This document shows, one piece after another, positions 5,454 to 30,621 of a stretch of DNA of 37,870 nt. Source of the stretch: a virus; the IMG/VR virus record IMGVR_UViG_3300043427_001029, positions 1 to 37,870 of that record, one strand, 5' to 3'. Positions within the stretch are counted from its first letter, which is position 1, and each line of letters starts with the position of its first letter. Under the pieces are notes generated by a model. That model did no database searches, was not told the origin of the DNA, and saw nothing but the letters and a program-made list of their open reading frames with translations. A program made the position numbers and the translations under genes.

Positions 5454-7784
5454 ATGTCTACTACACAGAAGGCGCTGGCTGCAGCGTCTGTGCTTCTTTT
5501 TGGAGTGCCAACAGCAGCATTGTCTGATACAATAACTGGAACTGATTTCGAGGGGGGATCTCTATCTGGATGGAATACGGGATCTCAACCAGGAAATCTA
5601 ACCAACGGAACAATCACTGGTAATGGAACTGGTGTTACTGCAATCAACGGATCGGTAACATTTAGTGCGCCTTCTCATGGCGCGGTGGGTAGTCCCACAC
5701 TCCCAGATGGATCACCAAATCCATACCATGCCCCAGCAACAACACCAACAACTTGGACATTCTCTCCATATGGAACTGCTGGTGCTGCATTACAACCAAC
5801 AGGTTCAACAACATTCGATGCAGCAACTTCTGCATTAGGTCTTACATCTGCAGAAAATCAAGCAATCAAAACAAAACTTCAGCAAGACCAACAGGCATCA
5901 GGTCTAGGAAATCCCAATCCAACTAATGCCGCATGGTTAACTCAAAGCGTAAATCTTGATGCTGGAAAAGTTTATACGATGTCATGGAACTACATTGGAA
6001 CTGATTATGTTCCATTCAACGATGGTTCTATTACATCTCTTGTTTATCAGGGAACTGGTTCTACTCCAGTTGTAAATGTCAACAACTATGTTCAGAACTA
6101 TGCGTTACTTGGATTCACTAACCCAGGTACGGGAGATTACTCTACAGGAACTTATGGTTCAACTGGATGGCAGAATTCAACATATCAAGTTGATGTAACT
6201 GGTGCTTATCTATTAGGATTTGCAGTATTTAATCTTGGAGATACTGCACTATCACCAGTTCTTTTAGTTGATAGTCAACCAGGAACCACATTAGCAAATG
6301 GACAACCATTTGGTGCTGTTGCTCCCAACAATCCAAATGCTCCTACAATAAATCCAACACCACCAACACCTCCAACTCCAACACCACCACCTGCCCCAAC
6401 AGTAACTGGAACATCTACGACAGATCAGGTATCAACATCTTCGTCAACTTCAAATGTTGTAGTAACAGCTCAGGTTACTTATAATGTAAGCAATCTTGAC
6501 AATAATGGATATGGAGTAGTTCAGAACTATACTGATACTATAGAAACTACAACTCCAGTTACTACAACAACTACAACTACAACTCCAGTTACAACGACCA
6601 CATATTCTGATGGTTCTACAACCACCTCAAACGGAACGCCAGTAGTAACCACAACAACATCAAACGGATCTTCTACATCACAAGTAACTGCAACAGTTCT
6701 TAATTCTACTTCAACCACTACTCCTTCTATAGGATATAGCACAGCACAATCAACTACGTTACCACAAACATATAAAAATGATTATGCGTTTGCTTCATCT
6801 GAGAATGGTGGAAAACAAAAAGTAAATGTTCATGTAGCAACTGAAATCACAACTCCATTAGTTACCACTGTAACCGCAACTCCAGTAACTACGATTGTAT
6901 ATGCTGATGGAACTACAACTACAACTGAAGGAACACCAGTTGTAACTTATGTGTCTTCTGAAAGTGTAGATGTCGTCCATACTTACAAGGATTACTTTGG
7001 TCGTATAGATCAACTAGAAGTTCTTGATAATATCAGCAGTGCTATCAATGGTCTGTTAGATCATGAACCAATCACCAATCATAAGAAGAGATTTAGAGTA
7101 TTCGAAAACAATCGCTTCATGCATTCATATAATGCTGATGGTTATCAAGCAAAATCTACAGTATTTGGTGGTGGATTTGAATATGACATCACCAAAGGAT
7201 GGACTGCTGGAGCACAATACAATGATCTCTATACTGAAATGATAGGTGTGGATAGCATCTCACACCTCAAGAGACAGCATGTTGGTATATTCAATAGCTT
7301 CCATGGCAGAGATGTAGCACTTGTTACAAATGCTGGTGCTTCTAGAGACAAATATGATGTTGCTAGAACCGTTGAATATATGTTTGGTAACTGGGCAAAT
7401 GTAGAAGGAACACAATGGTGGGTTCATAACAGACTATATCTGAATAACTCTGGTTGGATCAAACCATTCTTAGGTTATACTATTTCTAACATTCGAAGAA
7501 ATGCTTATACTGAAACTGGTTCTCCAGAATCAGCAAGAAGTGTCGAAGCGTTCAACCAGACCACACATGTTGGTGAAGCTGGTTTGAAACTAGAAACTCG
7601 CTTTGGTGGTAAGAAGAAAGATGTAATTGGCGTGAGTGTTGAAGGTGCCTATTCTACAGACAACTCATATAGTGCCACTGCTTCTATTGATTACAAACAA
7701 GCACTATATGTAGAGGGAACTCATTCTGTTACTGATGGTTTGACAAGCAATTCCGTTGCCGCCAAAGTTAAGTTCAGATTTTGA
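5454..7784 (+). CDS. Exported protein with Thr-rich repeats and probable C-terminal outer-membrane barrel, 776 aa
   Basis: A signal peptide (about 1-24) leads a polar Gly/Thr/Ser/Asn passenger to residue 298. A Pro/Thr linker at 300-320 follows, then two related Thr-rich units (about 360-420 and 460-505) sharing TPVTT-x-x-Y-x-DG-TTTT-x-GTPVVT. From about 535 to the end, alternating aromatic and polar strands (GGGFEYDITKGWTAGAQYND, PFLGYTISNIRRNAY, AGLKLETRFGG) end in KVKFRF, the C-terminal Phe typical of proteins inserted by the BAM complex. The architecture is that of an autotransporter-like outer-membrane protein. A role in changing the host surface, adsorption or lysis is conjecture; it could also be a virion protein. 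Confidence 0.65.
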   Translation: MSTTQKALAAASVLLFGVPTAALSDTITGTDFEGGSLSGWNTGSQPGNLTNGTITGNGTGVTAINGSVTFSAPSHGAVGSPTLPDGSPNPYHAPATTPTTWTFSPYGTAGAALQPTGSTTFDAATSALGLTSAENQAIKTKLQQDQQASGLGNPNPTNAAWLTQSVNLDAGKVYTMSWNYIGTDYVPFNDGSITSLVYQGTGSTPVVNVNNYVQNYALLGFTNPGTGDYSTGTYGSTGWQNSTYQVDVTGAYLLGFAVFNLGDTALSPVLLVDSQPGTTLANGQPFGAVAPNNPNAPTINPTPPTPPTPTPPPAPTVTGTSTTDQVSTSSSTSNVVVTAQVTYNVSNLDNNGYGVVQNYTDTIETTTPVTTTTTTTTPVTTTTYSDGSTTTSNGTPVVTTTTSNGSSTSQVTATVLNSTSTTTPSIGYSTAQSTTLPQTYKNDYAFASSENGGKQKVNVHVATEITTPLVTTVTATPVTTIVYADGTTTTTEGTPVVTYVSSESVDVVHTYKDYFGRIDQLEVLDNISSAINGLLDHEPITNHKKRFRVFENNRFMHSYNADGYQAKSTVFGGGFEYDITKGWTAGAQYNDLYTEMIGVDSISHLKRQHVGIFNSFHGRDVALVTNAGASRDKYDVARTVEYMFGNWANVEGTQWWVHNRLYLNNSGWIKPFLGYTISNIRRNAYTETGSPESARSVEAFNQTTHVGEAGLKLETRFGGKKKDVIGVSVEGAYSTDNSYSATASIDYKQALYVEGTHSVTDGLTSNSVAAKVKFRF

Positions 7785-10333: not shown

Positions 10334-11836
10334 ATGAAAACATTTAAGCATTTGATGCTTGCCACTGCTGCTATCAGCGCCACTGCTCCTGCTGTGGCTG
10401 CTGATCTGAATATTGCTGCTGTTAATCAGTATGCAACTTCTGAGCAGGTTACAAGCGTCACTCAATTGTCTGATGTCCGACCTTCGGATTGGGCATACCA
10501 GGCACTTACCAATCTCGTAGATCGTTATGGTTGCGTAGCTGGTTATCCTAACGGCACTTATGGTGGTGGTAAGGCAATGACTCGTTATGAGGCAGCCGCA
10601 CTTCTGAATGCTTGCCTTGATCGTGTAACTGAAGTGACTGACGAACTCCAACGTCTTTCAAAAGAGTTTGCGGATGAACTTCTTGTCATTCGTGGTCGTG
10701 TTGCCAAACTGGAAACTCAAGTTGGTCAACTCCAAGCAACTCAGTTCTCTACCACAACTAAACTCAAGGGCGAAGTTAACTTCATTCTTGGTGGTGTAGA
10801 AGGTGCTCGTCTTGCTAACAATACTAATGTTGGTAATACTGCATTTAACTACGATCTTCGTCTGAACTTTGACACTTCGTTTACTGGTAAAGATCTGCTT
10901 CGTACTCGTCTGCGTACTGGTAACTTCTCCAGTCAACCATTCGGTTCTTCTTCGTCTCTGTTCAAACTGGACAAAGCAGAAACTTATGCAAACGCCGTAC
11001 AACTTGATCGTTTGTACTACAGCTTCCCTGGTCTTACCAAAGGTATGACCCTGACTGCTGGTGCTCTGGTTCGTAACACAGAGATGGCATGGGTTCCTTC
11101 TGCTTATAAGTCTGACATTCTTGACTTCTTCCAAGTTGCTGGTGCTCCTGGCGTTTATAACAAAGCAACTGGTTCTGGTTTCGGTGCTCAATGGGCACAA
11201 CCTACCAAAAAAGGTAAGGGTGGTTTCGTTGCTGGTGTGAACTATGTTGCTCAGAATGGTAGTGATAGTTCCAAGGGTCAGTTCGATGAGACTGGTGCTC
11301 TGAATACTCTGGCACAAATCGGTTATCGTGCTCCTCAGTATGGCGTTGCATTCGGTTATCGTTATGGCACTGAAGGCACTCGTGTTCGTACCTTCAATGC
11401 TATCAATGGTGGTTCTGGTGCTCTTGCTGCTGGTCAAACCTCTAACAGCTATGCTATCAATGCTTACTGGCAACCTAAGAAGTCTGGTATCGTACCTTCG
11501 ATCTCTGGTGCTTATGGTTGGACCGATGTGAGTAAGAATGCTCTAGGTCGTACCACTCCTACTGGTGCTACCAACTCGCAGACATGGTTTGCTGGTCTTC
11601 AGTGGAGCGATGTATTCGCCAAGGGTAACGCTGCTGGTTTCGCTATTGGCGCCCCTGGCAATGCTGCTTCTCTTGCTGATAATCAGAAAGCTATCATGTG
11701 GGAAACCTTCTATCGTTACAAGGTTAGCGACAATATCAGCATCACTCCTTCGATCTTCTATGTTTCCAACAACCAAGGATTCAAGAACGCTTCGGATAAC
11801 TATGGTGGTGTAATCCAAACTAAATTCACTTTCTGA
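10334..11836 (+). CDS. Cyanobacterial-type SLH porin (outer membrane), 500 aa
   Basis: A signal peptide (1-22, AVAA) leads a mature protein with an SLH domain (about 45-95: LSDVRPSDWAYQALTNLVDR, YPNGTYGGGKAMTRYEAAAL), a short coiled coil (96-135) and a barrel (about 140-500) ending KFTF with a terminal Phe. This is the order of the major porins of cyanobacteria (SomA/SomB-type, also called iron-uptake porins), where the SLH part binds peptidoglycan or its attached polysaccharide and the barrel opens the outer membrane. Codon use is richer in GC than in nearby phage genes, fitting capture from a host. It is followed six bases later by an inner-membrane transporter. Family call is strong; the solute is unknown. 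Confidence 0.92.
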   Translation: MKTFKHLMLATAAISATAPAVAADLNIAAVNQYATSEQVTSVTQLSDVRPSDWAYQALTNLVDRYGCVAGYPNGTYGGGKAMTRYEAAALLNACLDRVTEVTDELQRLSKEFADELLVIRGRVAKLETQVGQLQATQFSTTTKLKGEVNFILGGVEGARLANNTNVGNTAFNYDLRLNFDTSFTGKDLLRTRLRTGNFSSQPFGSSSSLFKLDKAETYANAVQLDRLYYSFPGLTKGMTLTAGALVRNTEMAWVPSAYKSDILDFFQVAGAPGVYNKATGSGFGAQWAQPTKKGKGGFVAGVNYVAQNGSDSSKGQFDETGALNTLAQIGYRAPQYGVAFGYRYGTEGTRVRTFNAINGGSGALAAGQTSNSYAINAYWQPKKSGIVPSISGAYGWTDVSKNALGRTTPTGATNSQTWFAGLQWSDVFAKGNAAGFAIGAPGNAASLADNQKAIMWETFYRYKVSDNISITPSIFYVSNNQGFKNASDNYGGVIQTKFTF

Positions 11837-11842
11837 TAACAT

Positions 11843-12883
11843 ATGGATCTACTAATGGGTATTTGGGAGAAAGAACTTTTTCTCCCCTACATCATCGGCA
11901 TCATGATTGTCGGTGGTCTCGTAAAACAATACGGAGTGCTTAACGAAGTATTCGTAGCACTTCGCAAAATCTTCAAGTCAAATAGACTTGTAGTTGCTGC
12001 TACTGCTTTAGCTGGTGGTGTTCTACCCATTGAAGGGCGTGTCGTTATGTCGGCACCCCTTCTGGATTCCATCGCTTCAGACAAAGCACAATCTCGTTCT
12101 AAGTTTGGTATCGTAGATTATCTTTCTACTCACCACTATTACTGGTGGTCACCACTAGAAAAGACTGTTGTGCTTCCTATGGCAGCACTCGGTATGTCAT
12201 ATACAACTTATATGAGTTATACCATTGTTCCTCTTGCAATCGTTTTGGCATTCGCAGGTGTATTCATCTTCAAGTATGTCAAGGAGACTGATGTTGAGAT
12301 TGTGGAGGAAACTCGCACCTTCAGTTGGAATCGTCTGCTGAAAGGTTGGGGGCCTATTGTTGCTACGATGTGGTTCCTGGTATGCTATGGTGATCCAGAC
12401 ATGCCATATCTCTTCTCTGTTTGGTTCACAGGTCTTGCTGCTTACTATTCATTCATCTGCAATGATTGGAAGTGGGGTCGTTATATCAAGTGGAAGTTTG
12501 CTGGTTTTGCTGCTCTGGTGCTTGCTCTTGCTGCCATCATGGGAGAACTGAAAGAACCAGTCATGGAGTATTTGAAACTGACTGCAGCTCAAGGTTCCGC
12601 TGCTCTTGGCATTATCTCTGTGGTTGGTTTCCTTGCTGCGTTTGCTATGGGATCCTCTAGCAAGTATGCTGGTATCGTTGCTCTTCTTGCTAAGGCATTC
12701 GGTCCTGGATACTTGACATGGTTCCTCTGTGTGGAGTATGCTGGGTACATCATCTCTCCAATGCACAAGTGTCTGCTGATTGGTCAGCAATACTTTGGCA
12801 CTCCTATCAAAACTTACTATAAAGTTCTTGGTATGCTGATTGCTGCATTGGTTGGATACGGAGCACTGACTCTAGTGTTCTAG
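11843..12883 (+). CDS. DUF401-type integral membrane transporter, 346 aa
   Basis: A very hydrophobic protein with about ten membrane segments. LAGGVLPIEGRVVMSAPLLDS (58-76) and SPMHKCLLIGQQYF (305-318) match my memory of two signature re-entrant regions of DUF401, a family within the ion-transporter superfamily whose substrates are mostly unknown. It sits six bases behind the porin with ATATGG before its start, so the two are probably co-translated. No terminator is seen between them. The closest alternative is another carboxylate or amino-acid transporter of the same superfamily. Confidence 0.7.
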   Translation: MDLLMGIWEKELFLPYIIGIMIVGGLVKQYGVLNEVFVALRKIFKSNRLVVAATALAGGVLPIEGRVVMSAPLLDSIASDKAQSRSKFGIVDYLSTHHYYWWSPLEKTVVLPMAALGMSYTTYMSYTIVPLAIVLAFAGVFIFKYVKETDVEIVEETRTFSWNRLLKGWGPIVATMWFLVCYGDPDMPYLFSVWFTGLAAYYSFICNDWKWGRYIKWKFAGFAALVLALAAIMGELKEPVMEYLKLTAAQGSAALGIISVVGFLAAFAMGSSSKYAGIVALLAKAFGPGYLTWFLCVEYAGYIISPMHKCLLIGQQYFGTPIKTYYKVLGMLIAALVGYGALTLVF

Positions 12884-14188: not shown

Positions 14189-14764
14189 ATGTTGACACAA
14201 GGACTAGTTGAAACTGAATATGAAGATCCTGGATTTGAGATTACTCATCTGTCATTCAGGAGAAAAGAATCTTCACAACTCTATGGTGGTCCTGTACATT
14301 ACTATGTCGGCAACATCGTATTTCGTTTGAATAACGAGGATGCCAAAGGTCGCATGGAATACATTATGAGAGAGAATGAGAGGGTTCGTGTAGCACCAGA
14401 TGAAGAGTTACATGATAAGTATTACGATGGTCTTCACTTTAAGTTTGACAGAGAAAAAGAAGAAGTAAATGAAGACGGTGAAAAGTTTTATAAGCTTGAC
14501 ATCATCAACAAAGAAGGTATCAAAGATGAAGATGTATTCATCTATGGGTATCGTCGCAACATGGATCCCATGCATGATTTCGTAGAATACATTGAGAAGT
14601 TTGATTGTTATCGAATGCACGAATACTTCCAAGACACTCCAGTGGTTCGTGGTATAATTCAGTATCTCCAAGACATGAAAGATGGTAAACCTAATCCGAG
14701 TCGCACGGTCTATCACGAACAGTTTCTCAACACGCTTACAAACCTTTGTTGGTGGTGGGATTGA
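14189..14764 (+). CDS. Hypothetical protein, 191 aa
   Basis: Acidic, Tyr- and Trp-rich soluble protein ending NLCWWWD. GAGAGG lies eight bases before the ATG at 14189. Alternating strands early and helices later suggest a compact domain; no family recognised. Its TGA overlaps the ATG of the sulfotransferase. Confidence 0.65.
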   Translation: MLTQGLVETEYEDPGFEITHLSFRRKESSQLYGGPVHYYVGNIVFRLNNEDAKGRMEYIMRENERVRVAPDEELHDKYYDGLHFKFDREKEEVNEDGEKFYKLDIINKEGIKDEDVFIYGYRRNMDPMHDFVEYIEKFDCYRMHEYFQDTPVVRGIIQYLQDMKDGKPNPSRTVYHEQFLNTLTNLCWWWD

Positions 14765-15552
14765 TGAGTAAACTTTATTTTTTATCTGGGTTACCGAGAA
14801 CAGGAACTACTTTATTGTCGTCACTTCTAAATCAAAATCCCCAAATACATTGTACATCTACTAGTGGATTGTTGGATTTTTTATCTGGAGTAGATTATGT
14901 TTATGGAGAAATATCTCAAAGATATAAAACTATTGATGGTGCTCAATTAAAAAATATTTTCAAATCGGTTGTAGAATCTTATTATAATCATATTGATCGC
15001 CCAATTATTATAGATAAATGGCGAGGATGGATATCAAATATTCCTCAAATCAAAGAAGTTATAAATCCTTCTCCTAAAATTATTTGTACATACAGACCAG
15101 TCGAAGAAATAATAACTTCTTTTTTATACTTGTTGGAAAAAGATAAAAATAATTTTGTTGACCAAGAATTATTCAAAAGAAAAATACCAGTCACGAATGA
15201 AAATAGATCTAAATTTTTATGGAAAGAAGGAGTAGTAGGAGAATCATATGAAATGTTTAAAACATCTATAGATAAAAAAAATATTTTGTATATTTCTTAT
15301 AATAATTTAATTGACCAACCTGAAGAAACGATGACTAAAATATATGATTATCTTTCAGAATCATTCTATACACATGACGTTAATCATATAAAAAGTGATA
15401 CTAATGATAATGATAAATATTGGGAAATAAAAAATTTACATAGCATAAGATCTACATTAAAACGGGATTATAAAAATCCAGAGGATTATTTGACAACCAA
15501 ATCTATAAATTATTATAAACAATTTAACGATATATTTGATTATGTTAACTAA
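14764..15552 (+). CDS. Sulfotransferase-family protein, 262 aa
   Basis: The 5'-phosphosulfate loop is seen at the start (FLSGLPRTGTTLLSSLLNQNP) and the 3'-phosphate site near residue 110 (TYRPVEEIITSF), both marks of PAPS-dependent sulfotransferases. It would move sulfate from PAPS to a hydroxyl or amine of a glycan, lipid or small molecule in the host. GC content is far lower than in the flanking genes, a sign of separate origin. It overlaps the gene before (TGATG) and the oxygenase after. Substrate unknown. Confidence 0.75.
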   Translation: MSKLYFLSGLPRTGTTLLSSLLNQNPQIHCTSTSGLLDFLSGVDYVYGEISQRYKTIDGAQLKNIFKSVVESYYNHIDRPIIIDKWRGWISNIPQIKEVINPSPKIICTYRPVEEIITSFLYLLEKDKNNFVDQELFKRKIPVTNENRSKFLWKEGVVGESYEMFKTSIDKKNILYISYNNLIDQPEETMTKIYDYLSESFYTHDVNHIKSDTNDNDKYWEIKNLHSIRSTLKRDYKNPEDYLTTKSINYYKQFNDIFDYVN

Positions 15553-16183
15553 TATAATTGACATTCTTCCAAACCCAATAGCTTTTTTTGAATGTGATTT
15601 TCATGAAGAAGTGAAACGAATATCTTTTGATGTTACTACTAAACTTAATGAAACAAAAAATATTCATTCCAATAATTTAAAACATTATGGGAATGATATT
15701 GGAGAATCCATTTTATACAGAGAGGAATTTTTACCTTTTATGGAATGGTGTGTCTCGTGTGCAAAAGAATATGTGATTGATATTTTGGGATATAAGATAT
15801 TAGATGATATAATAGTGACTGATAGTTGGATAAATTGTTGTGAAAGTGGAGGGTTTCAATACCCACATTATCATGCAAATTCTTTTATTTCTGGAACTTA
15901 TTATATAAACTTTGAAGAGAATGTACATTCTCCGTTATTGTTTAGAAATCCAAAATCAATTGAGTCTGGTAATCAACCAGTAATTCAACTTGAGAAAAAT
16001 ATTCCAACAAAATATAATAGTGATTCGGTTGTACTTCCAGAATCTGGCAAACTAATTCTTTGGGAATCTCACTTGAGTCATGGTTATAATATTAATCCCG
16101 CAGATAATAGAATGAGTCTTTCTATGAATTTTATTCCAAATTATATTACTAGTGGTAAATATGGATTCAGAATACAAAACTAG
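15542..16183 (+). CDS. Putative 2OG-Fe(II) oxygenase (TIGR02466-like), 213 aa
   Basis: The core HYHANSFISGTYYINF gives an HxH/N-type metal site with the following strand. LILWESHLSHGYNIN supplies the distal His, and NRMSLSMNF the Arg and strand expected for 2-oxoglutarate binding. This matches the phage/cyanobacterial TIGR02466 group as I recall it. It is very AT-rich and overlaps the sulfotransferase by 11 bases. The substrate is unknown. Confidence 0.7.
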   Translation: MLTNIIDILPNPIAFFECDFHEEVKRISFDVTTKLNETKNIHSNNLKHYGNDIGESILYREEFLPFMEWCVSCAKEYVIDILGYKILDDIIVTDSWINCCESGGFQYPHYHANSFISGTYYINFEENVHSPLLFRNPKSIESGNQPVIQLEKNIPTKYNSDSVVLPESGKLILWESHLSHGYNINPADNRMSLSMNFIPNYITSGKYGFRIQN

Positions 16184-16316
16184 AGTATGCTCTAAATGTA
16201 ATACTCAATATCCCCTTGACAAGGACCACTACCAAGTGGTAAAATACTTTCGTACAGGATTCTCTTACTACTGCAATGAGTGTAACAAACCAAAGCCGCG
16301 TGAAGACCATTCTTGA
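16161..16316 (+). CDS. Small zinc-finger protein, 51 aa
   Basis: Encodes CSKCNTQYPLDKDHYQ, then about 20 residues, then CNECNKPKPRED. The two CxxC pairs resemble the zinc knuckle found ahead of HNH nucleases, here standing alone. It overlaps the genes on both sides, and the downstream promoter lies inside it. It is too short for a length filter but the Cys pattern makes it convincing. Confidence 0.65.
   Translation: MDSEYKTRVCSKCNTQYPLDKDHYQVVKYFRTGFSYYCNECNKPKPREDHS
16216..16245 (+). promoter_or_regulatory. Sigma70-type promoter with inverted repeats, inside the zinc-finger gene
   Basis: TTGACA (16216-16221), 18 bp, TAAAAT (16240-16245). The -35 is inside CCTTGACAAGG, and the spacer holds ACCACT/AGTGGT (16225-16240). 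It would drive the gene at 16276 and possibly the halogenase operon. Confidence 0.6.
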
Positions 16317-16539
16317 TCGTTTCCCATATCGTTACGTTCAAGTAGGCACCTTAGAAATCAATGGCAAACCTGATTGCCGTATTCAAAAAGTAGATTCTTA
16401 CACAGGTCGATATCGTGATATGTATCTGTGTGATAATGAGATGCAGTTCATGACTGCTATTGAAGATTTTGAGTATACGAAATGGCTTGATCCAGATACA
16501 GTTCCATGTTACATTAAAGGAGAAGATGACGATGAATGA
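16276..16539 (+). CDS. Hypothetical protein, 87 aa
   Basis: Basic N-terminus, then beta-rich middle (RYVQVGTLEINGKPDCRIQKV) and acidic end. No family recognised. The start overlaps the zinc-finger gene by 41 bases; an ATG start is the only good choice. It is followed by an overlapping small gene. Confidence 0.6.
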   Translation: MSVTNQSRVKTILDRFPYRYVQVGTLEINGKPDCRIQKVDSYTGRYRDMYLCDNEMQFMTAIEDFEYTKWLDPDTVPCYIKGEDDDE

Positions 16540-16819
16540 CTCAGTTAAATATCAATTAGAAAGAGCAGTTGATGCTCTACGCACGGCAGTAAAACTTGGT
16601 GCATCGGTTGAAGATGCTTATCTGCTTCGTAATATCGTAGAAACTATTAATACCATCGAAGGTTGGCAAACCTCTTCTAGGTATAAGTATAACATTTCTA
16701 AAGAAACTATTGATGATTCTATTAAATTTACCATGAGTGGTTACGATCCCGATTATAATATCACAATTAATTCTGGAGCGGATGAAATGCCCTATCGCTA
16801 CTATGGTATTTCTTCGTGA
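16532..16819 (+). CDS. Hypothetical helical protein, 95 aa
   Basis: I start it at the ATG nine bases after AAAGGAG (16532) rather than an upstream frame-open ATG. The first 45 residues are helical, then a polar tail. It overlaps the stop before it and the GTG of the halogenase after it, so expression is likely coupled. Function unknown. Confidence 0.6.
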   Translation: MNDSVKYQLERAVDALRTAVKLGASVEDAYLLRNIVETINTIEGWQTSSRYKYNISKETIDDSIKFTMSGYDPDYNITINSGADEMPYRYYGISS

Positions 16820-18057
16820 AAATCGCTGTAATTGGAGTTGGTACTGCTGGATGTTTATCGTTGTGTCATTTGTTGACATACCTCCCATCATATTGGGAAG
16901 TGATATCCGTACATGATCCATCAACTCCAATTGTTGGTATTGGAGAAAGCACTCTTCCTAGATTTCCATTCATGTTATTTGCTGGCACCAGATTTCATTA
17001 TGCGACCGACAAGCATGAATTGGATGCTACCATAAAACAAGGAGTAAAATTTGTTAACTGGAGAAAGGAAGATATATTTCATACGTTTGCATCAAATACT
17101 TATGGAATACATTTCAATACATTTAACCTAAAGGATTTTGTTCTATCTAGATTGCCTAAATTGTGGAAGGATAGATTCTCTTCTATTACAGGAAATGTGG
17201 AAGACTTAATTAATACCGATAAAGGAGTTGATGTTATTGTAGACAATGTAGTTCATGAATTCGACTACGTAGTTGATTGTCGAGGGTTTCCAGATAATTA
17301 TGAGGATTGTCAAGAAAGCAATGTTGTTCCAGTAAATCATGCTTTAATAAATGTTATAGATAAACCAGGCGATTGGGATTGGACATATCATTATGCCCAT
17401 CCCAATGGTTGGATGTTTGGAATTCCTTTGTCTACTAGACAAGGATGGGGATACTTATATAATGATACGATATCAACAAAAGAAGAAGGTATCGATTGGT
17501 TATCAGAACATTTTAAAACACCGAAAGATCAATTAAATATCAGAGAATATAGTTGGAAACCATTCTTTTCCAATAAGATGATAGATGGACGTATTATCAA
17601 AAATGGTAATCGCATTTCTTTCATGGAACCTTTACAAGCATTATCTTTTGGAATCTATGACGCAGTGAATTTAGCATGTGTTGAATATGTGCAGGGAAGG
17701 GAAACAGAAGAAAGAGCAGAATTATTTTACAGGCAGATTATAGAAACTACCGAGGCAACTATTGCTTTCCATTATCATGGTGGATCAATATTTAATACTG
17801 AATTTTGGAAAATGGCATCGGTAAAATGCTCACGTTATGTCAGTTCTGTTAAAAATATGGAAAATCTTTTTGATAGACTTAGAGAATATAGAACTGCATC
17901 CAACAATAATTTGTTTATGTATCTAATGTCTCCTCAGGAAAGAGAAACTTTGAAGATGGGAGTGTTTGATCCACAATCAATCTATTTTATTGATGAAGCT
18001 TTTGGGTATAACTATACTAAACAAGGCACTCAAGAAAATTACTATTACATAACATGA
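16816..18057 (+). CDS. Flavin-dependent (tryptophan-type) halogenase-like protein, 413 aa
   Basis: A FAD-binding GVGTAG (7-12) leads the chain. IVGIGESTLPRF (about 39-50) and TIKQGVKFVNW (72-82, Lys74 at the place of the catalytic Lys of PrnA/RebH) follow. The usual WxWxIP is changed to GWMFGIPLSTR (about 197-207), with the second Trp replaced by Phe. FMEPLQALSFG matches the EPLES element only in part. The fold is of this family, but the changes may mean a different substrate or another oxidation. GTG start overlapping the preceding stop; it overlaps the next gene as ATGA. Confidence 0.75.
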   Translation: MKIAVIGVGTAGCLSLCHLLTYLPSYWEVISVHDPSTPIVGIGESTLPRFPFMLFAGTRFHYATDKHELDATIKQGVKFVNWRKEDIFHTFASNTYGIHFNTFNLKDFVLSRLPKLWKDRFSSITGNVEDLINTDKGVDVIVDNVVHEFDYVVDCRGFPDNYEDCQESNVVPVNHALINVIDKPGDWDWTYHYAHPNGWMFGIPLSTRQGWGYLYNDTISTKEEGIDWLSEHFKTPKDQLNIREYSWKPFFSNKMIDGRIIKNGNRISFMEPLQALSFGIYDAVNLACVEYVQGRETEERAELFYRQIIETTEATIAFHYHGGSIFNTEFWKMASVKCSRYVSSVKNMENLFDRLREYRTASNNNLFMYLMSPQERETLKMGVFDPQSIYFIDEAFGYNYTKQGTQENYYYIT

Positions 18058-18770
18058 GTTTAATTAAAATATACTATCATCAATATGTTGGAGAGTGGTA
18101 TGATAATCCAAATTGTCCGTTTGATTTGGATGAAATGTGTATGCCACCAGAAAGTGTTATCGGCATAGAAAAACAATCTCATCCACAAGGAATGATTTAT
18201 TATGACTGCCCTGCGTGGTCTCATAAAGCATCCAGACTCTACAATATAAATTGCCCTGTAGATATCAATCTGGAAGTGGTGGATAATAAAATTGCTTCTA
18301 GAACTCTTCCTCAACAATTGCTGCAAGATTATATCTGCCACAATTCAAATACAGATACTATTCAATTCAATATACCGAGATATCTTTTTTGGACTGATCA
18401 CAAAAATGTTTGGATTGAATTTAGACCACATCCATTAACTTCTGTTAAAAATAATTTCGTTTCTTTGGGTGGTTGGTGGAATCTTTCTGCTTGGTCTAGA
18501 CCTGCTAGTTTTGCTATGGATGTTGTTGATAAAACAAAACCTATTGTGATCAAGAGAGGAGATCCTTTGTACCAAATTTGTTTCTATACAAAGAACCTAA
18601 ATGATAGAGTGGTGTTCATTAAGAAAGAACCAACCAGAGAAATGATAAAACAAGTAATGAAAAGAACTTCTATAAAAAATTTCATTCGTAATTTATCAAA
18701 GAAACATATATTTAAATATCAAGAAGAATCTAAATGCCCATTTGCATTTTTATATAAAAACAATGGTTGA
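18054..18770 (+). CDS. Unknown protein co-encoded with the halogenase, 238 aa
   Basis: Not recognised. The sequence is rich in Trp, Tyr and Asn, with strands around IKIYYHQYVGEWY, SHPQGMIYYDCPAW and KNVWIEFRPHPLTSV and a basic C-terminal helix. Its start and end overlap both neighbours, so it probably works with the halogenase and the hydroxylase, perhaps as partner, carrier or reductase-like helper; this is inference. Confidence 0.6.
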   Translation: MSLIKIYYHQYVGEWYDNPNCPFDLDEMCMPPESVIGIEKQSHPQGMIYYDCPAWSHKASRLYNINCPVDINLEVVDNKIASRTLPQQLLQDYICHNSNTDTIQFNIPRYLFWTDHKNVWIEFRPHPLTSVKNNFVSLGGWWNLSAWSRPASFAMDVVDKTKPIVIKRGDPLYQICFYTKNLNDRVVFIKKEPTREMIKQVMKRTSIKNFIRNLSKKHIFKYQEESKCPFAFLYKNNG

Positions 18771-19377
18771 TGTAACAGACTATATTAAAGTGTTTAACGT
18801 AATGACAGATGTTGAATGTGATTACGTTATGCATTGTGCTGAAAACAATTCACATGTTACTGATTTTTATAGATCTTTGGTAGGTGATGTTGATCAGGGA
18901 GATTATAAACCTGCTATAATTGATGGTAGAAATAATACACAATGTTATGTTATACCTCAAACACCATTAGATACTTTTTTATATAACAAAGTTGCTGAAT
19001 CATATCAGTTATGGTTATCAGCAATTGATCCTTATATGAGGCAAGTTTGGAATACTCAATTTAGAAATATTGTGGACTCTGGATATCAAATTAATAAGTA
19101 TGAGACAGACCAGTTCTATGATTTTCATGTTGACCTGACTCAGAACCGAGATATTGACAGAGTGCTATCTATTGTGCTATACTTGAATGATGATTACGAG
19201 GGCGGTGAACTTGAGTTTCCATTCATGATACACAAACCAAAGCAGGGAGATGTCATATTATTTCCTTCAACGTGGTTATACCCTCATAAAGCAGCACCTG
19301 TAAAATCTGGTACTAAATATTCAGTAGTAACGTGGTTTAATAATATAACAGGTTCTACTCCTAGTGTCTCGGGATGA
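18763..19377 (+). CDS. Prolyl-4-hydroxylase-type 2OG-Fe(II) oxygenase, 204 aa
   Basis: FHVDLTQNRDIDRVLSIVLYLND shows the HxD and the strand after it. EGGELEFP follows, and GDVILFPSTWLYPHKAAPV carries the distal His, with GTKYSVVTWF as the 2OG-binding Lys/strand. This is the standard phage prolyl-hydroxylase-like layout. It should hydroxylate a protein or small molecule. The ATG at 18763 overlaps the preceding stop by eight bases; a longer frame from 18742 is possible but less likely. Confidence 0.8.
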   Translation: MVDVTDYIKVFNVMTDVECDYVMHCAENNSHVTDFYRSLVGDVDQGDYKPAIIDGRNNTQCYVIPQTPLDTFLYNKVAESYQLWLSAIDPYMRQVWNTQFRNIVDSGYQINKYETDQFYDFHVDLTQNRDIDRVLSIVLYLNDDYEGGELEFPFMIHKPKQGDVILFPSTWLYPHKAAPVKSGTKYSVVTWFNNITGSTPSVSG

Positions 19378-23872: not shown

Positions 23873-25309
23873 ATGCATATTTGTATAATAGGATCGGGCG
23901 CTGCTGGGTGGCAGGCATGTAATTTATTTAAAAATAAATCATATGTGAAAAAAATAACCATAGTGGGATCTCCCCATATTCCTTCTATAGGTGTGGGTGA
24001 ATCCACAACTATAGATTTCTGCGAACTCCATGATAAAATAGGTGATGATCTATCAGATTTTATACGAGAGACTGATGCAGCAGTAAAGTATGGAGTCTAC
24101 TATAAGAATTGGTCAGAACGTAATTGGTTACATCATTTAAAATGCACTGATCATTTTAGAAAGTATGATATAAACATTCATGAATATGGTAAACGATTAG
24201 GAAGCAAAGGAAACGTTTACATTCATGATCTCATAGGCAAGTTTTTATTTCAAGCAACAACAAACAATCATATTCTAAACGGAATAGGAACTAAACCATC
24301 TCAGTTTTTAGAGTATCCTAACTCTTGGCACTTTGATGCTGGGAAGTATATAAAGTATTTAAAGAAACTTGCATTAAAAAATGACAACGTAGTGTTTGTT
24401 GAAGACACAATAGTTGATTGTGTATTTGATGGTGATGTTATACAAGAAATTATTTCTGAATCTGGTAGAAGAATCAAAGCAGACTACTACATCAATACTA
24501 GTGGTGCTACCGAGAAAACAAACAGAATTTTTAGACAAGAATATACTGATTTGTCTGATGTTCTATTGACAGATAAAGCACTATTTTATCCTTTGAAATA
24601 TGAAAATAAGAAAAAACAATTTCATCCATATACTATAGCTAAAACAATGAAATATGGGTGGCGTTGGATTACACCAACGTGGTCTCGTGTGGGAACTGGA
24701 TATGCTTTTAGTTCTAGGCATATCAGTATAGACCAAGCAGTAGATGAATTTGTCAAAGATATAGGTGATGAAACTATAGTGCCTAACGTGGTTGACTTCA
24801 AACCCAAATATAATAAAGTTACTTACAGAAAGAATAGTTGTTCTGCTGGTATGGCAAATGGATTCTTGGAACCATTAGATGCTCCTGGACTTGCATTAAC
24901 ATCTTACATATTATTTGGTCTGGAAGATATATTTGAACGAGGTAAATCTATAGTAGATTTGAATGATTATCTATCTGAGAGTTATAAATGGTGGGCATGT
25001 TTTATTCTTGCTCAATATAAAACTTGTTATAGAAATGATACTGACTTCTGGATAGATCATAAAAATGTTCACTATGATTTCTATCAAGGTATTGTTGATA
25101 ACTTAGGAACAGAATTGGATTCAACTGCTGGTGGATTAGCAAAAACTCCATGGATGGATATGATGATGTTTTATCACACCATGTCAGCAAAAAACCTCAA
25201 ATGGAATTCTGAGAAACCATTTGAGGTTTTGAGTCCTGCATCTAGAACAATTGACCACTATATGTGGATATCAAAATTTCATTCTGCTTGTGGTAGCGAT
25301 GCCTGGTAA
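23873..25309 (+). CDS. Flavin-dependent (tryptophan-type) halogenase, 478 aa
   Basis: A FAD site GSGAAG (8-13) is followed by SIGVGEST, AAVKYGVYYKNW (Lys72 at the catalytic Lys position), WRWITP (about 263-268, the WxWxIP signature kept almost intact) and FLEPLDAPG (about 330, matching the EPLES element). This copy keeps more of the diagnostic residues than the one at 16816. It should add halogen (Cl or Br, both plentiful in sea water) to an electron-rich ring, using FADH2. Substrate unknown. Its 3' end overlaps a convergent gene by 31 bases. Confidence 0.8.
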   Translation: MHICIIGSGAAGWQACNLFKNKSYVKKITIVGSPHIPSIGVGESTTIDFCELHDKIGDDLSDFIRETDAAVKYGVYYKNWSERNWLHHLKCTDHFRKYDINIHEYGKRLGSKGNVYIHDLIGKFLFQATTNNHILNGIGTKPSQFLEYPNSWHFDAGKYIKYLKKLALKNDNVVFVEDTIVDCVFDGDVIQEIISESGRRIKADYYINTSGATEKTNRIFRQEYTDLSDVLLTDKALFYPLKYENKKKQFHPYTIAKTMKYGWRWITPTWSRVGTGYAFSSRHISIDQAVDEFVKDIGDETIVPNVVDFKPKYNKVTYRKNSCSAGMANGFLEPLDAPGLALTSYILFGLEDIFERGKSIVDLNDYLSESYKWWACFILAQYKTCYRNDTDFWIDHKNVHYDFYQGIVDNLGTELDSTAGGLAKTPWMDMMMFYHTMSAKNLKWNSEKPFEVLSPASRTIDHYMWISKFHSACGSDAW

Positions 25310-25561: not shown

Positions 25562-25570
25562 TTATTTATT
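25562..25570 (-). promoter_or_regulatory. Minus-strand late motif AATAAATAA
   Basis: Read on the minus strand, AATAAATAA overlaps the stop of the fibre gene and lies 38 bases before the ATG of the 81-residue gene, a usual position for a late promoter. Confidence 0.5.
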
Positions 25571-28500
25571 AGGTAGTGTAATATGTTGCTGAAAAAGTTA
25601 TTGTGCTGTTGCCAGTTACGCTGCCTCCAGAATAAACGGTTGAACTGTTACCTCCCGCTATACCAAAACCTACATTAGATGTACCAACGTAAATTACGCC
25701 AAAATAGCTTGGTGCAGCAAAAGGAAGATTGCTAGTTATTGTTCCCCCAGCACCGCCTATTGCAATACTAGTAGATCCCGATAACGTAAATGTTATGAAA
25801 ACTTGTCTACCAATTTTTGTGTAAGTCCCAGAAGAGCTAAACGTTCCAGTAACAGTGAGACCTCCACCTTGATTGGGTGTCCAAGTTCCCTCTTCATAAT
25901 CACTCAACAACTCAGAAGTCATGCCAGCATTATTGGCATTAGCAGAGAAGTCGATACCTTTACCAGCAGCAAATCTAAAATTATTTGAGCTGTAAACTTC
26001 AGTTGAAGAAACTAAGAAATGATTTGATCCATCACTATCATCGGCATTAATGAAGAAAGCATCATCTGTTTTGAGACCCATTCTAATTTTACCAGTGCCT
26101 TGTCTGGTAAATCTCATATATGATTGATCTTGTGCTGTTAGTTGCCTATCAATTCTAAAAATACCTTGAACATGTAAAGCATCTTGGGGAGATGTATTTA
26201 AAATACCAACTCTATTGTTTGTAGCATCAACAAATAATGTGTTGGTATCAACTGTGAGGTTTCCACTTACTGTGAGTGATGAGAGAGTTCCAACCTGTGT
26301 CAAACTTGAAGTAGTAACACCAGCACCAATACTCCAAGAACCAGTAGTAGGACCGAGTGTAGTTGTTAATCCGTTTGCAACCTGAACGTTACCAATTCTG
26401 TATTGCTTACCAGTAGCAAGGTCGAAGTGTTCTGTGGATGTAAATGCTGTTGTAGCGTTCACATAAGTGATAGACTTATCAGTGGTTCCCTTAACACGGA
26501 AACCTCCACCATCAGCTGTGGTATCTGTAGCACCAGTTGATACAAACGTAGCAGTGCCAGAAGAACCAGTAACTGTATTTGATAGTGTAGCAGTATTGTT
26601 TGTGATAGAAACAATTGTAGTTCCTGCTGGGACACTTAAACCAGCGGTGGAAATACTAACTACCATACCAGGAATCAATCCTGTAACAGGTGTAATAGCA
26701 GTGATGTTAGCACTATTACTTACGATACTTGCTGTAAATGTTCTGGCAGAAATATCAGCAAGATCAATCAGTTTATCATCAACACTTAAAATGTTAGTAT
26801 TAATACTTGTTGTTGTGCCATTGACAACCAAGTTACCACTGACTGTCAAGTTGCCACCAACGTTTGCGTTTTGTGGTAGAGTAACGTCAAAGTTAGAATC
26901 ACCACGAACCCATGTAGCAGTGCCAGAACCAATAACTAACTGGTTATCACCTGATGGTGTTGGTGGTGTATAAGTTACGTTGGTGCTGTTACCATCTGGA
27001 GCAGGACCAATCAATACGTTGCCGCTACCAGTAGCTCCACCGCCAGCATAGTAACCAATCGCAACGTTGTTATTACCAGTCGTGTTACCTTCTAGAGTAT
27101 TGGAACCAACGCCAACGTTTCTTTCTCCACCTAGAATAGCAGTCAATGCTGATCTACCAATAGCAATGTTATGCTGACCTGTGCTTGCGTTGGTTAGTGC
27201 TTGATAACCGATAGCAACAATCGAAGCACCAGAGTTGATTGTCTTCGCAGCTTCAAAACCAATTGCTGTGTTTTGACTACCAGAAGTGTTTGAGTTTAGG
27301 CAGTTGTACCCCATTCTGGTGTTAGTGGCAATTGCGTTACCACCTCTACCAATAGCGATTGGGTTTGCAGTGCCACCGCGAATAGTGAAGTCAGCGTTAA
27401 CAAAATCTACTGTTCCATTTAAGTTGATTGCATCGCCAACAACGTCACCTAGATTTGTTGTTCCGTTTACACTTAAACTATTTCTTATGGTTGTTGTGCC
27501 AGTTGTTGCACCGATATTGACAGCAGTAGCAGCACCAAAAGCATTAATCGTTGTTGCTGTGGTGTTAAAGACCGCGAACGTAGTACTACCAGTGAGAATA
27601 CTGGTTGTGATTGTTGGAGATGTTCCAAACACTGCAACACCAACACCAGTTTCATCACTCAGAACACCACGAAGTTGTGCTGAAGTTGTTGAAGCAAATA
27701 CTGATAGGTTGTTAGTCGTGTAAACAACAGTTCCACCAGTACCGAAACCAATAGTAGAAGAATCAGTTCCGCTGAATGTTAAGGTGTTGTTACATGTTAG
27801 AGTTTTGCTGTTAGCAATTGTCAAAGTTCCGTTAGAAACTTGAGTAATTGCTAAACCATTGATTGTTGTAGCAGTGGCAGCGCCAAGAGTTGGAGTTGTT
27901 AGTATTGGATTAGATAGTGTTTTATTTGTGAGAGTTTGAGTTTCTGTTTCAGTTACAAATCTGTTGGCAACTGATCCGTCATAACTTCTCCAGTATCCAC
28001 CAGATTCAAACCATTGGAGAATGTTATATGTTTGAACTAATCCAGATGCGTTAGTTGTTCTGTTGATTTTAATACCAGAATCAGTGCCTACTAGATTATT
28101 TCCTTTTCTTAGTTCTATTTCGTTATCAGCAACAACTAAAGTTGTAGTATCTATTGTGGTAACGCTACCTGTTACTGTTAAAGCTCCATTAATAGTGACA
28201 ACACTTCCGTTGTCTGAAATGATGCTATTGACTAATTGTTTATTAGAGTTATCCCATTTTAATAATCTAGAGTCAGTAAGATTGACTACATTTTTTAAAG
28301 AAAATACGGTGGAAGTTTCTGCTAATCCTCCCGTGGAAGAAACTGAGTAAGTGGTGTTTGTATCGGTACTTGTTATTGTAATAGTACCACCAGATTGAGA
28401 AACTACCGATGCACCACCAGCTGCAATTGTGATATCACCAGATGTTAAAGTTCCTGCAGTTGCTGATTGTAGACGAGTAATCGTATTTGTATCTGTACTA

Positions 28501-29399
28501 TTGATTGTTATGGTTGATCCTGATTGCGAAACGCTGGTTGCTCCAGATCCAGCAATCGATATATCACCAGATGTTAGAGTTCCTCCAATTGATGATTGTA
28601 GACGAGTAATTGTATTAACAGAACTAATTGTGTAGTTAGAACCACTCTGCGTTACTGTTGTTGCTCCATCAGATAGAAGAGTCAGATCTCCTGATGTGTA
28701 TGTTCCAGAAGCAGTTCCACGCAGTCTGGTTATAGTATCGACATACGAGGAAGAAATTGTAATTGTGTTTCCTGCTTGTGAAACTGTTGATGAACCGCCC
28801 GCTGCAATTGTGATGTCCCCAGATACTAAAGTTCCACCAGTTGATGATTGCAGACGAGTAATAGTGTTGGTATCAATATAACTTGAGTTGATTGTAATGG
28901 CATCACCAGTTCTTGATAATGTAACGTTGCTTCCTGCTACCAAAGTAACGTCATCATTTATTCCAGCACCAGCGTTTCCGCCAGACGTTAATCTTATAAT
29001 TTTTTCGGTTGATGTGCCGCCATCTTGGGCAGATATAGCATAAGTTGTGTTATTGTCGGGAGTGGTTACAGATCCTCCCAACGGAATATCTACACTATTA
29101 ACTGTTATCTTATTATTGACTAAAGAATTATTTGGTATTGCTGAGAATGTATTAGTGGATCCAGATAACACACAATCATTGAAAGTCTTGTTTGTTATTG
29201 TTTGGGAAGTAGTTAAGTAAACATCACCTGGATTGTCCCATACAACAGTAGATCCATTTGTCTTTAGATATTGACCATTAGTGCCGCTAGTATTATTTGC
29301 AACTATCCCACTATTGGTCAGATCTAAATTATCGGTTGCTGATAATTCTTCAATCTTTTTTGATGTCGGATTAACTATTAAAGGAAAGCGATTTGCCAT
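25569..29399 (-). CDS. Long repetitive tail-fibre protein, 1276 aa
   Basis: Starts MANRFPLIVNPTSKKIEELS, a start type common in cyanophage fibres. Residues about 170-360 hold five tandem units of the type TNTITRLQSS-x-x-GTLTSGDI-x-IA. Residues about 690-800 resemble the head of YadA-like trimeric adhesins (QNTAIGFEAA, HNIAIGRSAL, NNVAIGYYAG, each with an x-AIG turn). DYEEGTWTP (about 1200) is a common lead-in to a fibre tip domain. It probably trimerises and contacts the host surface. An upstream TATAAATA on the minus strand fits late expression. Confidence 0.85.
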   Translation of the reverse strand: MANRFPLIVNPTSKKIEELSATDNLDLTNSGIVANNTSGTNGQYLKTNGSTVVWDNPGDVYLTTSQTITNKTFNDCVLSGSTNTFSAIPNNSLVNNKITVNSVDIPLGGSVTTPDNNTTYAISAQDGGTSTEKIIRLTSGGNAGAGINDDVTLVAGSNVTLSRTGDAITINSSYIDTNTITRLQSSTGGTLVSGDITIAAGGSSTVSQAGNTITISSSYVDTITRLRGTASGTYTSGDLTLLSDGATTVTQSGSNYTISSVNTITRLQSSIGGTLTSGDISIAGSGATSVSQSGSTITINSTDTNTITRLQSATAGTLTSGDITIAAGGASVVSQSGGTITITSTDTNTTYSVSSTGGLAETSTVFSLKNVVNLTDSRLLKWDNSNKQLVNSIISDNGSVVTINGALTVTGSVTTIDTTTLVVADNEIELRKGNNLVGTDSGIKINRTTNASGLVQTYNILQWFESGGYWRSYDGSVANRFVTETETQTLTNKTLSNPILTTPTLGAATATTINGLAITQVSNGTLTIANSKTLTCNNTLTFSGTDSSTIGFGTGGTVVYTTNNLSVFASTTSAQLRGVLSDETGVGVAVFGTSPTITTSILTGSTTFAVFNTTATTINAFGAATAVNIGATTGTTTIRNSLSVNGTTNLGDVVGDAINLNGTVDFVNADFTIRGGTANPIAIGRGGNAIATNTRMGYNCLNSNTSGSQNTAIGFEAAKTINSGASIVAIGYQALTNASTGQHNIAIGRSALTAILGGERNVGVGSNTLEGNTTGNNNVAIGYYAGGGATGSGNVLIGPAPDGNSTNVTYTPPTPSGDNQLVIGSGTATWVRGDSNFDVTLPQNANVGGNLTVSGNLVVNGTTTSINTNILSVDDKLIDLADISARTFTASIVSNSANITAITPVTGLIPGMVVSISTAGLSVPAGTTIVSITNNTATLSNTVTGSSGTATFVSTGATDTTADGGGFRVKGTTDKSITYVNATTAFTSTEHFDLATGKQYRIGNVQVANGLTTTLGPTTGSWSIGAGVTTSSLTQVGTLSSLTVSGNLTVDTNTLFVDATNNRVGILNTSPQDALHVQGIFRIDRQLTAQDQSYMRFTRQGTGKIRMGLKTDDAFFINADDSDGSNHFLVSSTEVYSSNNFRFAAGKGIDFSANANNAGMTSELLSDYEEGTWTPNQGGGLTVTGTFSSSGTYTKIGRQVFITFTLSGSTSIAIGGAGGTITSNLPFAAPSYFGVIYVGTSNVGFGIAGGNSSTVYSGGSVTGNSTITFSATYYTT

Positions 29400-29538: not shown

Positions 29539-30621
29539 ATGACTGCTACTATCGCTCAACAGCGTAGTGGAAGTAACACTTGGGAACAATTCTGCGAGTG
29601 GGTAACTTCTACCGATAATCGTCTTTACGTCGGTTGGTTTGGAACTCTAATGATTCCTACCCTTCTTGCTGCTACTATTTGTTTCATTGTTGCTTTCATC
29701 GCTGCTCCTCCTGTCGATATCGACGGCATTCGTGAACCCGTTGCTGGTTCACTCATGTACGGAAACAACATCATCTCTGGTGCTGTTGTTCCTAGTTCCA
29801 ACGCCATCGGACTGCACTTCTATCCTATCTGGGAAGCTGCTTCACTCGATGAATGGCTATATAATGGTGGACCATTTCAACTGGTCGTCTTCCACTTTCT
29901 GATTGGTATCTATGCCTACATGGGTCGTGAATGGGAACTCTCTTACCGATTGGGTATGCGTCCTTGGATTTGTGTTGCCTACAGCGCACCCGTTGCTGCT
30001 GCTTCTGCAGTTTTCCTCGTGTATCCCTTTGGACAAGGTTCCTTCTCTGATGCCATGCCGCTCGGCATTAGTGGAACATTTAACTACATGCTTGTTTTTC
30101 AGGCGGAGCATAACATCCTCATGCACCCCTTCCATATGCTTGGGGTGGCTGGTGTATTTGGCGGTTCTCTTTTCTCTGCTATGCATGGATCTCTGGTCAC
30201 AAGTTCACTCGTTCGTGAGACTACTGAAAACGAATCTCAAAACTATGGATACAAGTTCGGACAAGAAGAAGAAACCTACAACATCGTTGCAGCACACGGA
30301 TACTTTGGACGACTCATCTTCCAATACGCTTCCTTTAACAACAGTCGTAGCCTACATTTCTTTTTGGCTGCTTGGCCTGTTGTTGGTATTTGGTTTACTG
30401 CTCTCGGAGTCAGCACAATGGCATTCAACTTGAATGGTTTCAACTTCAACCAGTCGATTCAAGATAGTCAAGGTCATGTGATTCCTACTTGGGCAGACAT
30501 CCTCAATCGTGGTGGTCTAGGCATGGAAGTAATGCATGAGCGTAACGCTCACAACTTCCCTCTTGACCTTGCCGCTGCTGATATGACTCCTGTTGCTCTC
30601 ACTGCACCTGCAATCGGTTGA
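29539..30621 (+). CDS. psbA: Photosystem II D1 protein, 360 aa
   Basis: Full-length D1, with the five membrane helices, [15 protein letters not shown] (His ligand of P680), the Tyr-Z helix and the QB region FIAFNNSR-type stretch ([14 protein letters not shown]). The C-terminal extension after LDLAA resembles the CtpA processing site. Glu131 (Glu130 in the usual numbering, this protein has one extra residue near its start) is the residue linked to the high-light form of D1. It replaces damaged host D1 to keep energy supply during infection. It is more GC-rich than phage genes around it. Confidence 0.99.

Follow-up and report, generated by a model that had tools for sequence, protein, structure and literature searches.

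The stretch of DNA analysed here, referred to as the window, is the whole of the IMG/VR virus record IMGVR_UViG_3300043427_001029 (37,870 bases) and comes from a T4-like cyanophage, its nearest matches being Kyanoviridae such as S-CREM1 and S-H38. At 16816–19377 it encodes three proteins in overlapping frames, namely a short halogenase (halogenase 1), a 238-residue protein (u238) predicted to fold like a deoxyuridine triphosphatase (dUTPase) and an Fe(II)/2-oxoglutarate (2OG) oxygenase of the prolyl 4-hydroxylase (P4H) type. We read these genes tentatively, with a confidence somewhat below even, as a compact and relocated cyanophage modification cassette with a dUTPase-fold partner, for which a virion adhesin would be the likeliest target. 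As far as sequence can tell, the parts of the cassette, their order, their recurrence and their conserved catalytic residues are firm, and we infer that the enzymes act jointly, that u238 is their partner and that the target belongs to the virion. The three genes are:

16816–18057, plus strand: halogenase 1, 413 aa, GTG start (PF04820, 87.8 bits against a cut-off of 21)
18054–18770, plus strand: u238, 238 aa (phrog_17480, function unknown; predicted trimeric-dUTPase or beta-clip fold)
18763–19377, plus strand: P4H-type 2OG-Fe(II) oxygenase (PF13640, 69.6 bits against a cut-off of 27)

A preliminary description of this DNA, made from its letters alone, had stated that the halogenase, the unknown protein and the prolyl-hydroxylase-like gene overlap at every joint, and its coordinates and gene calls hold, with overlaps of 4 nt at 18054 and 8 nt at 18763. 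We use SUP as a joint group name for the u238 subfamily and its relatives from halogenase operons, and in these terms the window shows the order halogenase, SUP, 2OG oxygenase on one strand. In seven cultured cyanophages (Syn9, Syn10, S-CREM1, Sf-FR1, S-RIM44, P-TIM40 and Sf-CH3) the tail-fibre genes are followed by a single halogenase or a pair of them, next by a SUP gene that adjoins or overlaps the halogenase, and then by several 2OG oxygenases, and the halogenase overlapping SUP in Syn10 is VirX1 itself (PDB 6qgm, 1271 bits), the first known viral halogenase. Among the IMG/VR loci with an operon-type SUP a halogenase is located just upstream in 67 of the 76 that could be scored, all 67 being followed by 2OG genes, but near-duplicates occur among these loci and the query was derived from SUP proteins adjoining halogenases, so they are non-independent events and it is safer to count the distinct cultured genera. 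In 63 of the 67 loci the frames of halogenase and SUP overlap. Six operons (L221, L238, L242, L247, L249 and L256) contain, besides their own SUP, a copy of the u238 subfamily that is 37–44% identical to that of the window, and an overlap of u238 and P4H like the one seen here occurs in five further loci (L015, L017, L019, L020 and L025). A compact arrangement, in which a u238-like gene overlaps a short halogenase gene and this in turn a 2OG gene, is present in L136, L142 and L144. No publication naming an operon of this kind was found in the open-licence literature. The small gene after SUP in Syn9 (gp44) was considered as a precursor of a ribosomally synthesized and post-translationally modified peptide, but it encodes a charged helical 73-aa protein with no core-like segment.

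Halogenase 1 has the flavin adenine dinucleotide (FAD) site GVGTAG (GxGxxG), Lys74, the motif WMFGIP and Glu271, with Lys74 and Glu271 corresponding to the catalytic Lys79 and Glu346 of PrnA. This agrees with the preliminary description, according to which the FAD site and the catalytic Lys are kept and Phe replaces the second Trp of WxWxIP, and Glu271 can now be added. GxGxxG, Lys74 and Glu271 are invariant in 59 out of 59 distinct relatives, so the loss of halogenase residues in most homologues, which had been named as a finding that would refute the proposal, is not observed, and because the catalytic residues are kept throughout the clade we rejected a decay of halogenase 1. All 59 short-clade relatives read W-x-F-x-IP. 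The scan pattern GWMF could itself have selected this Phe, and four isolates obtained by plain tblastn, that is by a motif-free search, serve as control; they also possess the Phe (WEFGLP, WKFSLP, WTFVIP and WVFGVP). Since the Phe is fixed in the clade including these isolates, we regard W-x-F-x-IP on sequence grounds as the signature of a short halogenase clade (about 390 aa), and halogenase 1 is filed as a halogenase-like member of this clade and not as a canonical tryptophan halogenase. The sequences suggest that the clade has halogenating activity.

Closest to halogenase 1 are the short ‘tryptophan halogenases’ of S-MS29, S-SSM5 and S-SSM7 (36–39% identity), which share WMFGIP, Lys and Glu, while proteins of uncultured phages reach up to 49%. 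Unlike in the window, u238 and P4H do not adjoin these three halogenases, those of S-MS29 and S-SSM5 standing alone beside gp33 and that of S-SSM7 beside other genes. VirX1 is likewise a viral PF04820 protein with FAD site, catalytic Lys and Glu, and, as in the window, its gene overlaps that of a dUTPase-fold protein next downstream, with 2OG oxygenases behind. However, VirX1 has 530 aa, reads WVWNIP and is located behind tail-fibre genes, whereas halogenase 1 has 413 aa and WMFGIP, and the two align in two pieces only, at 22–30% identity. Single-protein searches of viral contigs with u238 or halogenase 1 gave no matches, and alignment-based searches were needed. Some single phage loci (L094, L104, L107 and L156) carry arrays of three to five halogenases together with four to eight 2OG oxygenases, and the array of L156 also carries a NodU-type carbamoyltransferase.

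For u238 there is no Pfam or NCBIfam family, and its match to phrog_17480 is at 1e-46. An AlphaFold model based on 53 aligned relatives (pLDDT 78, pTM 0.74) predicts a dUTPase fold: in a comparison with the PDB (Foldseek, VIA-align) the top 50 aligned entries were all dUTPases, the best with Z 10.5 and a root mean square deviation of 3.6 Å over 114 residues. A separate model of the operon-type SUP (44 sequences, pLDDT 89) also showed a dUTPase fold (best Z 10.1), and the two subfamilies are joined via an intermediate set with hhalign E-values of 1.4e-6 and 1.8e-8. u238 resembles the trimeric dUTPases in its predicted fold (Z about 10) and in motif-like segments 1, 2 and 4, and differs from them by about 80 extra residues, by its genomic setting and in the active site. 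Motif 3 (GxxD) reads GWWN, with Asn143 at the position of the catalytic Asp and invariant in the 53 relatives; the segment GGWWNLSAW...VIKRGDPLYQICF was aligned to motifs 3 and 4 from motif order and not by superposition. Motif 5 is absent, the C terminus being ESKCPFAFLYKNNG with no RGxGGFGSTG-like stretch. True dUTPase activity was rejected on these two grounds, Asn for Asp in motif 3 and the missing motif 5, whereas the operon-type SUP subfamily has retained Asp in motifs 1 and 3. Of the two roles that the preliminary description had offered for u238, carrier or partner, the partner looks right; the carrier was rejected, as no carrier-protein match was found and the predicted fold is dUTPase-like. 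The operon-type proteins within phrog_17480 and phrog_7084 (S-H38 gp208, Syn9 gp43 and S-CREM1 ORF70 belong to these families) share with u238 the predicted fold and the order of motifs, and they occupy the same place between halogenase and oxygenases. S-CREM1 ORF70 is annotated as ‘triphosphate nucleotidohydrolase’, but the residues needed for that are missing in u238. Stand-alone dUTPase-fold relatives are found near thymidylate synthase or ribonucleotide reductase in S-SM2, S-SCSM1, S-RIM4 (L194) and the haloviruses HF2 (L195) and HSTV-2 (L196); no halogenase is present at L194, L195 and L196. In most of the marine relatives L027–L091 a gene of the u238 family stands immediately after phoH and before the exonuclease region.

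The third protein contains the iron triad and the basic 2OG residue of its family (HVD...H...K) as FHVD, PHKAAPV and GTKYSVV. It shares the PF13640 core and HxD...H...K with PKHD/prolyl-4-hydroxylase-type oxygenases such as PiuC, YbiX and bacterial P4H, but scores far under the curated cut-offs of the named equivalogs. A collagen-like substrate was considered, but the 1276-aa fibre-like protein of the window (25569–29399) has no Gly-X-Y repeats. Several genes within runs of 2OG oxygenases (L186–L192 and L003) are labelled ‘ferrochelatase’, ‘DNA endonuclease V’ or ‘minor coat protein’, and these library labels look like misannotations because several of the labelled genes match 2OG models.

Tail-fibre genes accompany the canonical operon. 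A glycine-rich open reading frame (ORF; PF21722, phrog_863 ‘tail fiber assembly’) ends 0.5–0.9 kb upstream of the first halogenase in all 66 testable operons, compared to 9 out of 193 background windows, and gp40 (phrog_1787), located between fibre and halogenase, adjoins a halogenase in each of the 10 phage lineages in which it was detected. The fibre sequences are rich in Gly and contain many conserved His, Asn and aromatic residues. In related phages the operon region has been described as a hypervariable host recognition cluster with glycosyltransferases (PMC7029224). The fibre does not need the operon, since in the comparison of fibre and halogenase, which covered 20 complete genomes, glycine-rich fibres also exist in genomes lacking a full-length halogenase (S-CAM3, S-SCSM1, S-MS29, S-SSM5 and S-RIM4); the IMG/VR scan was a single one, seeded from operon members. 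Two of the short-halogenase arrays with 2OG genes (L094 and L107) adjoin tail-fibre-assembly genes, with no glycine-rich ORF in reach. In the window g87 and g119 precede halogenase 1 in place of the glycine-rich fibre and gp40, and the module therein would function in the same way as the operon, of which it is no copy.

We propose that 16816–19377 is a three-part phage modification module. The short halogenase would use reduced FAD, which a host flavin reductase presumably supplies, together with O2 and halide to form hypohalite at Lys74, which would then halogenate an aromatic group. u238, having a dUTPase fold without the full active site, would act as a docking or substrate-presenting partner, and the P4H-type Fe(II)/2-oxoglutarate oxygenase would hydroxylate the same substrate as the halogenase. 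The module may follow the plan of glycine-rich tail fibre, gp40, halogenase, dUTPase-fold protein and several 2OG oxygenases with more distant relatives as its parts, and may have moved to a tRNA-rich hot spot. Most likely, a single macromolecule is the substrate of both halogenase and oxygenase, with the dUTPase-fold protein as their docking partner, and a virion adhesin appears likelier as substrate than free tryptophan. dUTPases form trimers, as phage fibres usually do. VirX1 was also crystallised as a trimer, with a large and open active site accepting bulky substrates (PMC8407142). A wider model, which we consider doubtful though worth stating, is that cyanophages modify their own tail adhesins post-translationally by halogenation and hydroxylation, using a halogenase (VirX1 in Syn10), a dUTPase-fold partner turned scaffold and a battery of 2OG oxygenases acting on a glycine-rich fibre tip bearing His, Tyr and Trp; the window would then contain such a system in compact form, relocated and equipped with a halogenase of the short clade. 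If true, this would give viral halogenases their first native substrate class since VirX1 was described, and it would mean that viruses chemically edit their own receptor-binding proteins and that the dUTPase fold has acquired a new role. The conserved setting of fibre, gp40, halogenase, SUP and 2OG oxygenases makes the substrate question testable, and the window would add another case, assembled independently and out of different subfamilies. Published readings are free tryptophan or pyrrolnitrin-type chemistry for cyanophage halogenases (PMC2984593, PMC9964418) and DNA repair or 2OG signalling for the oxygenases (PMC2984593, PMC3037559). Each component is of a known kind, and the combination with a dUTPase-fold partner and the tie to tail fibres appear undescribed.

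The module is part of a block of seven genes (14764–19377) in a window with psbA (29539–30621), phoH (36159–36917) and 14 tRNA genes. Upstream of halogenase 1 the block contains four more genes, and a second halogenase lies near the module without adjoining it:

14764–15552, plus strand: sulfotransferase (PF13469, 69 bits against a cut-off of 27; P-loop GLPRTGTTLL of the 3'-phosphoadenosine 5'-phosphosulfate type)
15542–16183, plus strand: 2OG-Fe(II) oxygenase of the PF13759/TIGR02466 type (PF13759, 60 bits)
16276–16539, plus strand: g87, small conserved cyanophage gene (phrog_481; identity 76% to S-H38 and 84% to S-CREM1)
about 16526–16819, plus strand: g119, small gene left of halogenase 1, which in S-H38 precedes u238 without a halogenase
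23873–25309, plus strand: halogenase 2, full-length type, 478 aa, WRWITP

The neighbour of halogenase 2 is the fibre-like repeat protein mentioned above, encoded on the opposite strand. The preliminary description had counted five modification-type genes in the block. Four of them indeed have such domains, but the fifth, u238, has none in Pfam or NCBIfam, and the two small genes had been missed. A common substrate for all five is unsupported. The G+C content at third codon positions (GC3) is 0.15–0.17 for the sulfotransferase and the first oxygenase and 0.24–0.25 for halogenase 1, u238 and P4H, the latter being like other genes of the window, and because of this difference in base composition the first two are probably a separate AT-rich insert. 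Phage relatives of the sulfotransferase (34–38% identity) occur in S-SRM01, S-SKS1 and single-cell marine viruses, and the one of S-SRM01 adjoins glycosyltransferase and sugar-epimerase genes, thus suggesting a separate role for the sulfotransferase. Because of the GC3 split and the order in S-H38, which is g87, g119, one ORF, u238, P4H and tRNA-Leu with no halogenase at that locus, the block is, by its composition and gene order, a mosaic of this AT-rich pair plus a halogenase placed between g119 and u238. Halogenase 1 overlaps the preceding frame by 4 nt at 16816, and altogether six of the seven joints of the block overlap compared to 8 of 27 between closely spaced genes of the same strand elsewhere in the window (Fisher p about 0.01, for a comparison picked post hoc). 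As overlap is common in these phages, it is weak evidence for a joint function.

A number of results weigh against the proposed cassette. The exact orthologous trio of halogenase 1, u238 and P4H was not found in any other genome examined, and not only S-H38 but also L012 and L024 have g87, u238 and P4H without a halogenase. Of the 80 u238 relatives that were placed, 54 follow phoH immediately and have no modification enzyme beside them, another 13 lie no more than 450 nt from a 2OG oxygenase, and the remaining 13 have other locations; with the majority behind phoH, u238 also exists outside the module. Seen from the halogenase, a SUP gene is found within 2.5 kb in only 2 of the 22 testable short-halogenase loci (a 2OG oxygenase in 14 of them), and S-WAM1, S-SZBM1 and P-RSM6 have a halogenase and 2OG genes at the operon place but no SUP. 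The window has no glycine-rich fibre ORF within its 37,870 nt. Direct deep-profile comparison of u238 with operon SUP is weak (probability 4%), and their homology rests on fold, in-register motifs and the intermediate profile. The suggestion that the three proteins act together is strongly supported by the order of protein kinds in the cultured phages and IMG/VR loci, including the compact arrangements, but not by the orthologous trio, which is confined to the window among the genomes examined.

An alternative is that unrelated cargo piled up in a tRNA-rich hot spot, with halogenase 1 dropped by chance into a conserved run of g87, g119, u238 and P4H and with overlaps that simply reflect compact genes. 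The halogenase-free loci, the differing base composition of the sulfotransferase and the first oxygenase, the frequent overlaps elsewhere in these genomes and the many u238 relatives away from enzymes all fit such an accumulation. We nevertheless consider it unlikely, though a serious contender, as the seven cultured phages and most contigs tested show the same succession of kinds, with frames that overlap, at a different site in the genome, and as SUP, short halogenase and 2OG gene stand in a row in L136, L142 and L144.

An improbable explanation is the formation of halogenated tryptophan or another small molecule, for example a pyrrolnitrin-like antibiotic protecting the infected host, with the oxygenases tailoring the product. 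It has been suggested for cyanophage PrnA homologues (PMC2984593, PMC9964418), and the PF04820 family is named after free-tryptophan halogenases, but such a pathway is represented by its halogenase step only, VirX1 takes bulky substrates in its large, open site (PMC8407142) and the canonical operon goes with tail-fibre genes. It is more improbable still that the block sulfates, hydroxylates and halogenates a glycan or an outer-membrane component, altering the host surface so as to exclude other phages. The sugar genes beside the S-SRM01 sulfotransferase, the carbamoyltransferase in one short-halogenase array, the glycosyltransferases in the host-recognition clusters of related phages (PMC7029224) and the SLH/OprB porin encoded in the window point in this direction; however, halogenases need electron-rich aromatic groups that are absent from glycans, the sulfotransferase looks like a separate insert, and most such operons have no sugar enzymes. 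A nucleotide or DNA target, with the dUTPase-fold protein binding a pyrimidine nucleotide whose base is modified by halogenase and oxygenase, would fit the fold, the Asp of motifs 1 and 3 in operon-type SUP and the stand-alone relatives near nucleotide-metabolism genes, but is very improbable given the Asn and missing motif 5 of u238, oxygenases of protein or amino-acid hydroxylase types and an operon in the tail-fibre region.

Other genes of the window are also unusual. The porin gene (10334–11836) is of the cyanobacterial outer-membrane type with SLH and OprB domains and is followed at 11843–12883 by a gene for a DUF401 membrane protein (phrog_14035); S-SRM01 has an annotated porin as well. 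The gene at 5454–7784 encodes a 776-aa protein with an autotransporter beta-domain (PF03797), an unusual phage cargo.

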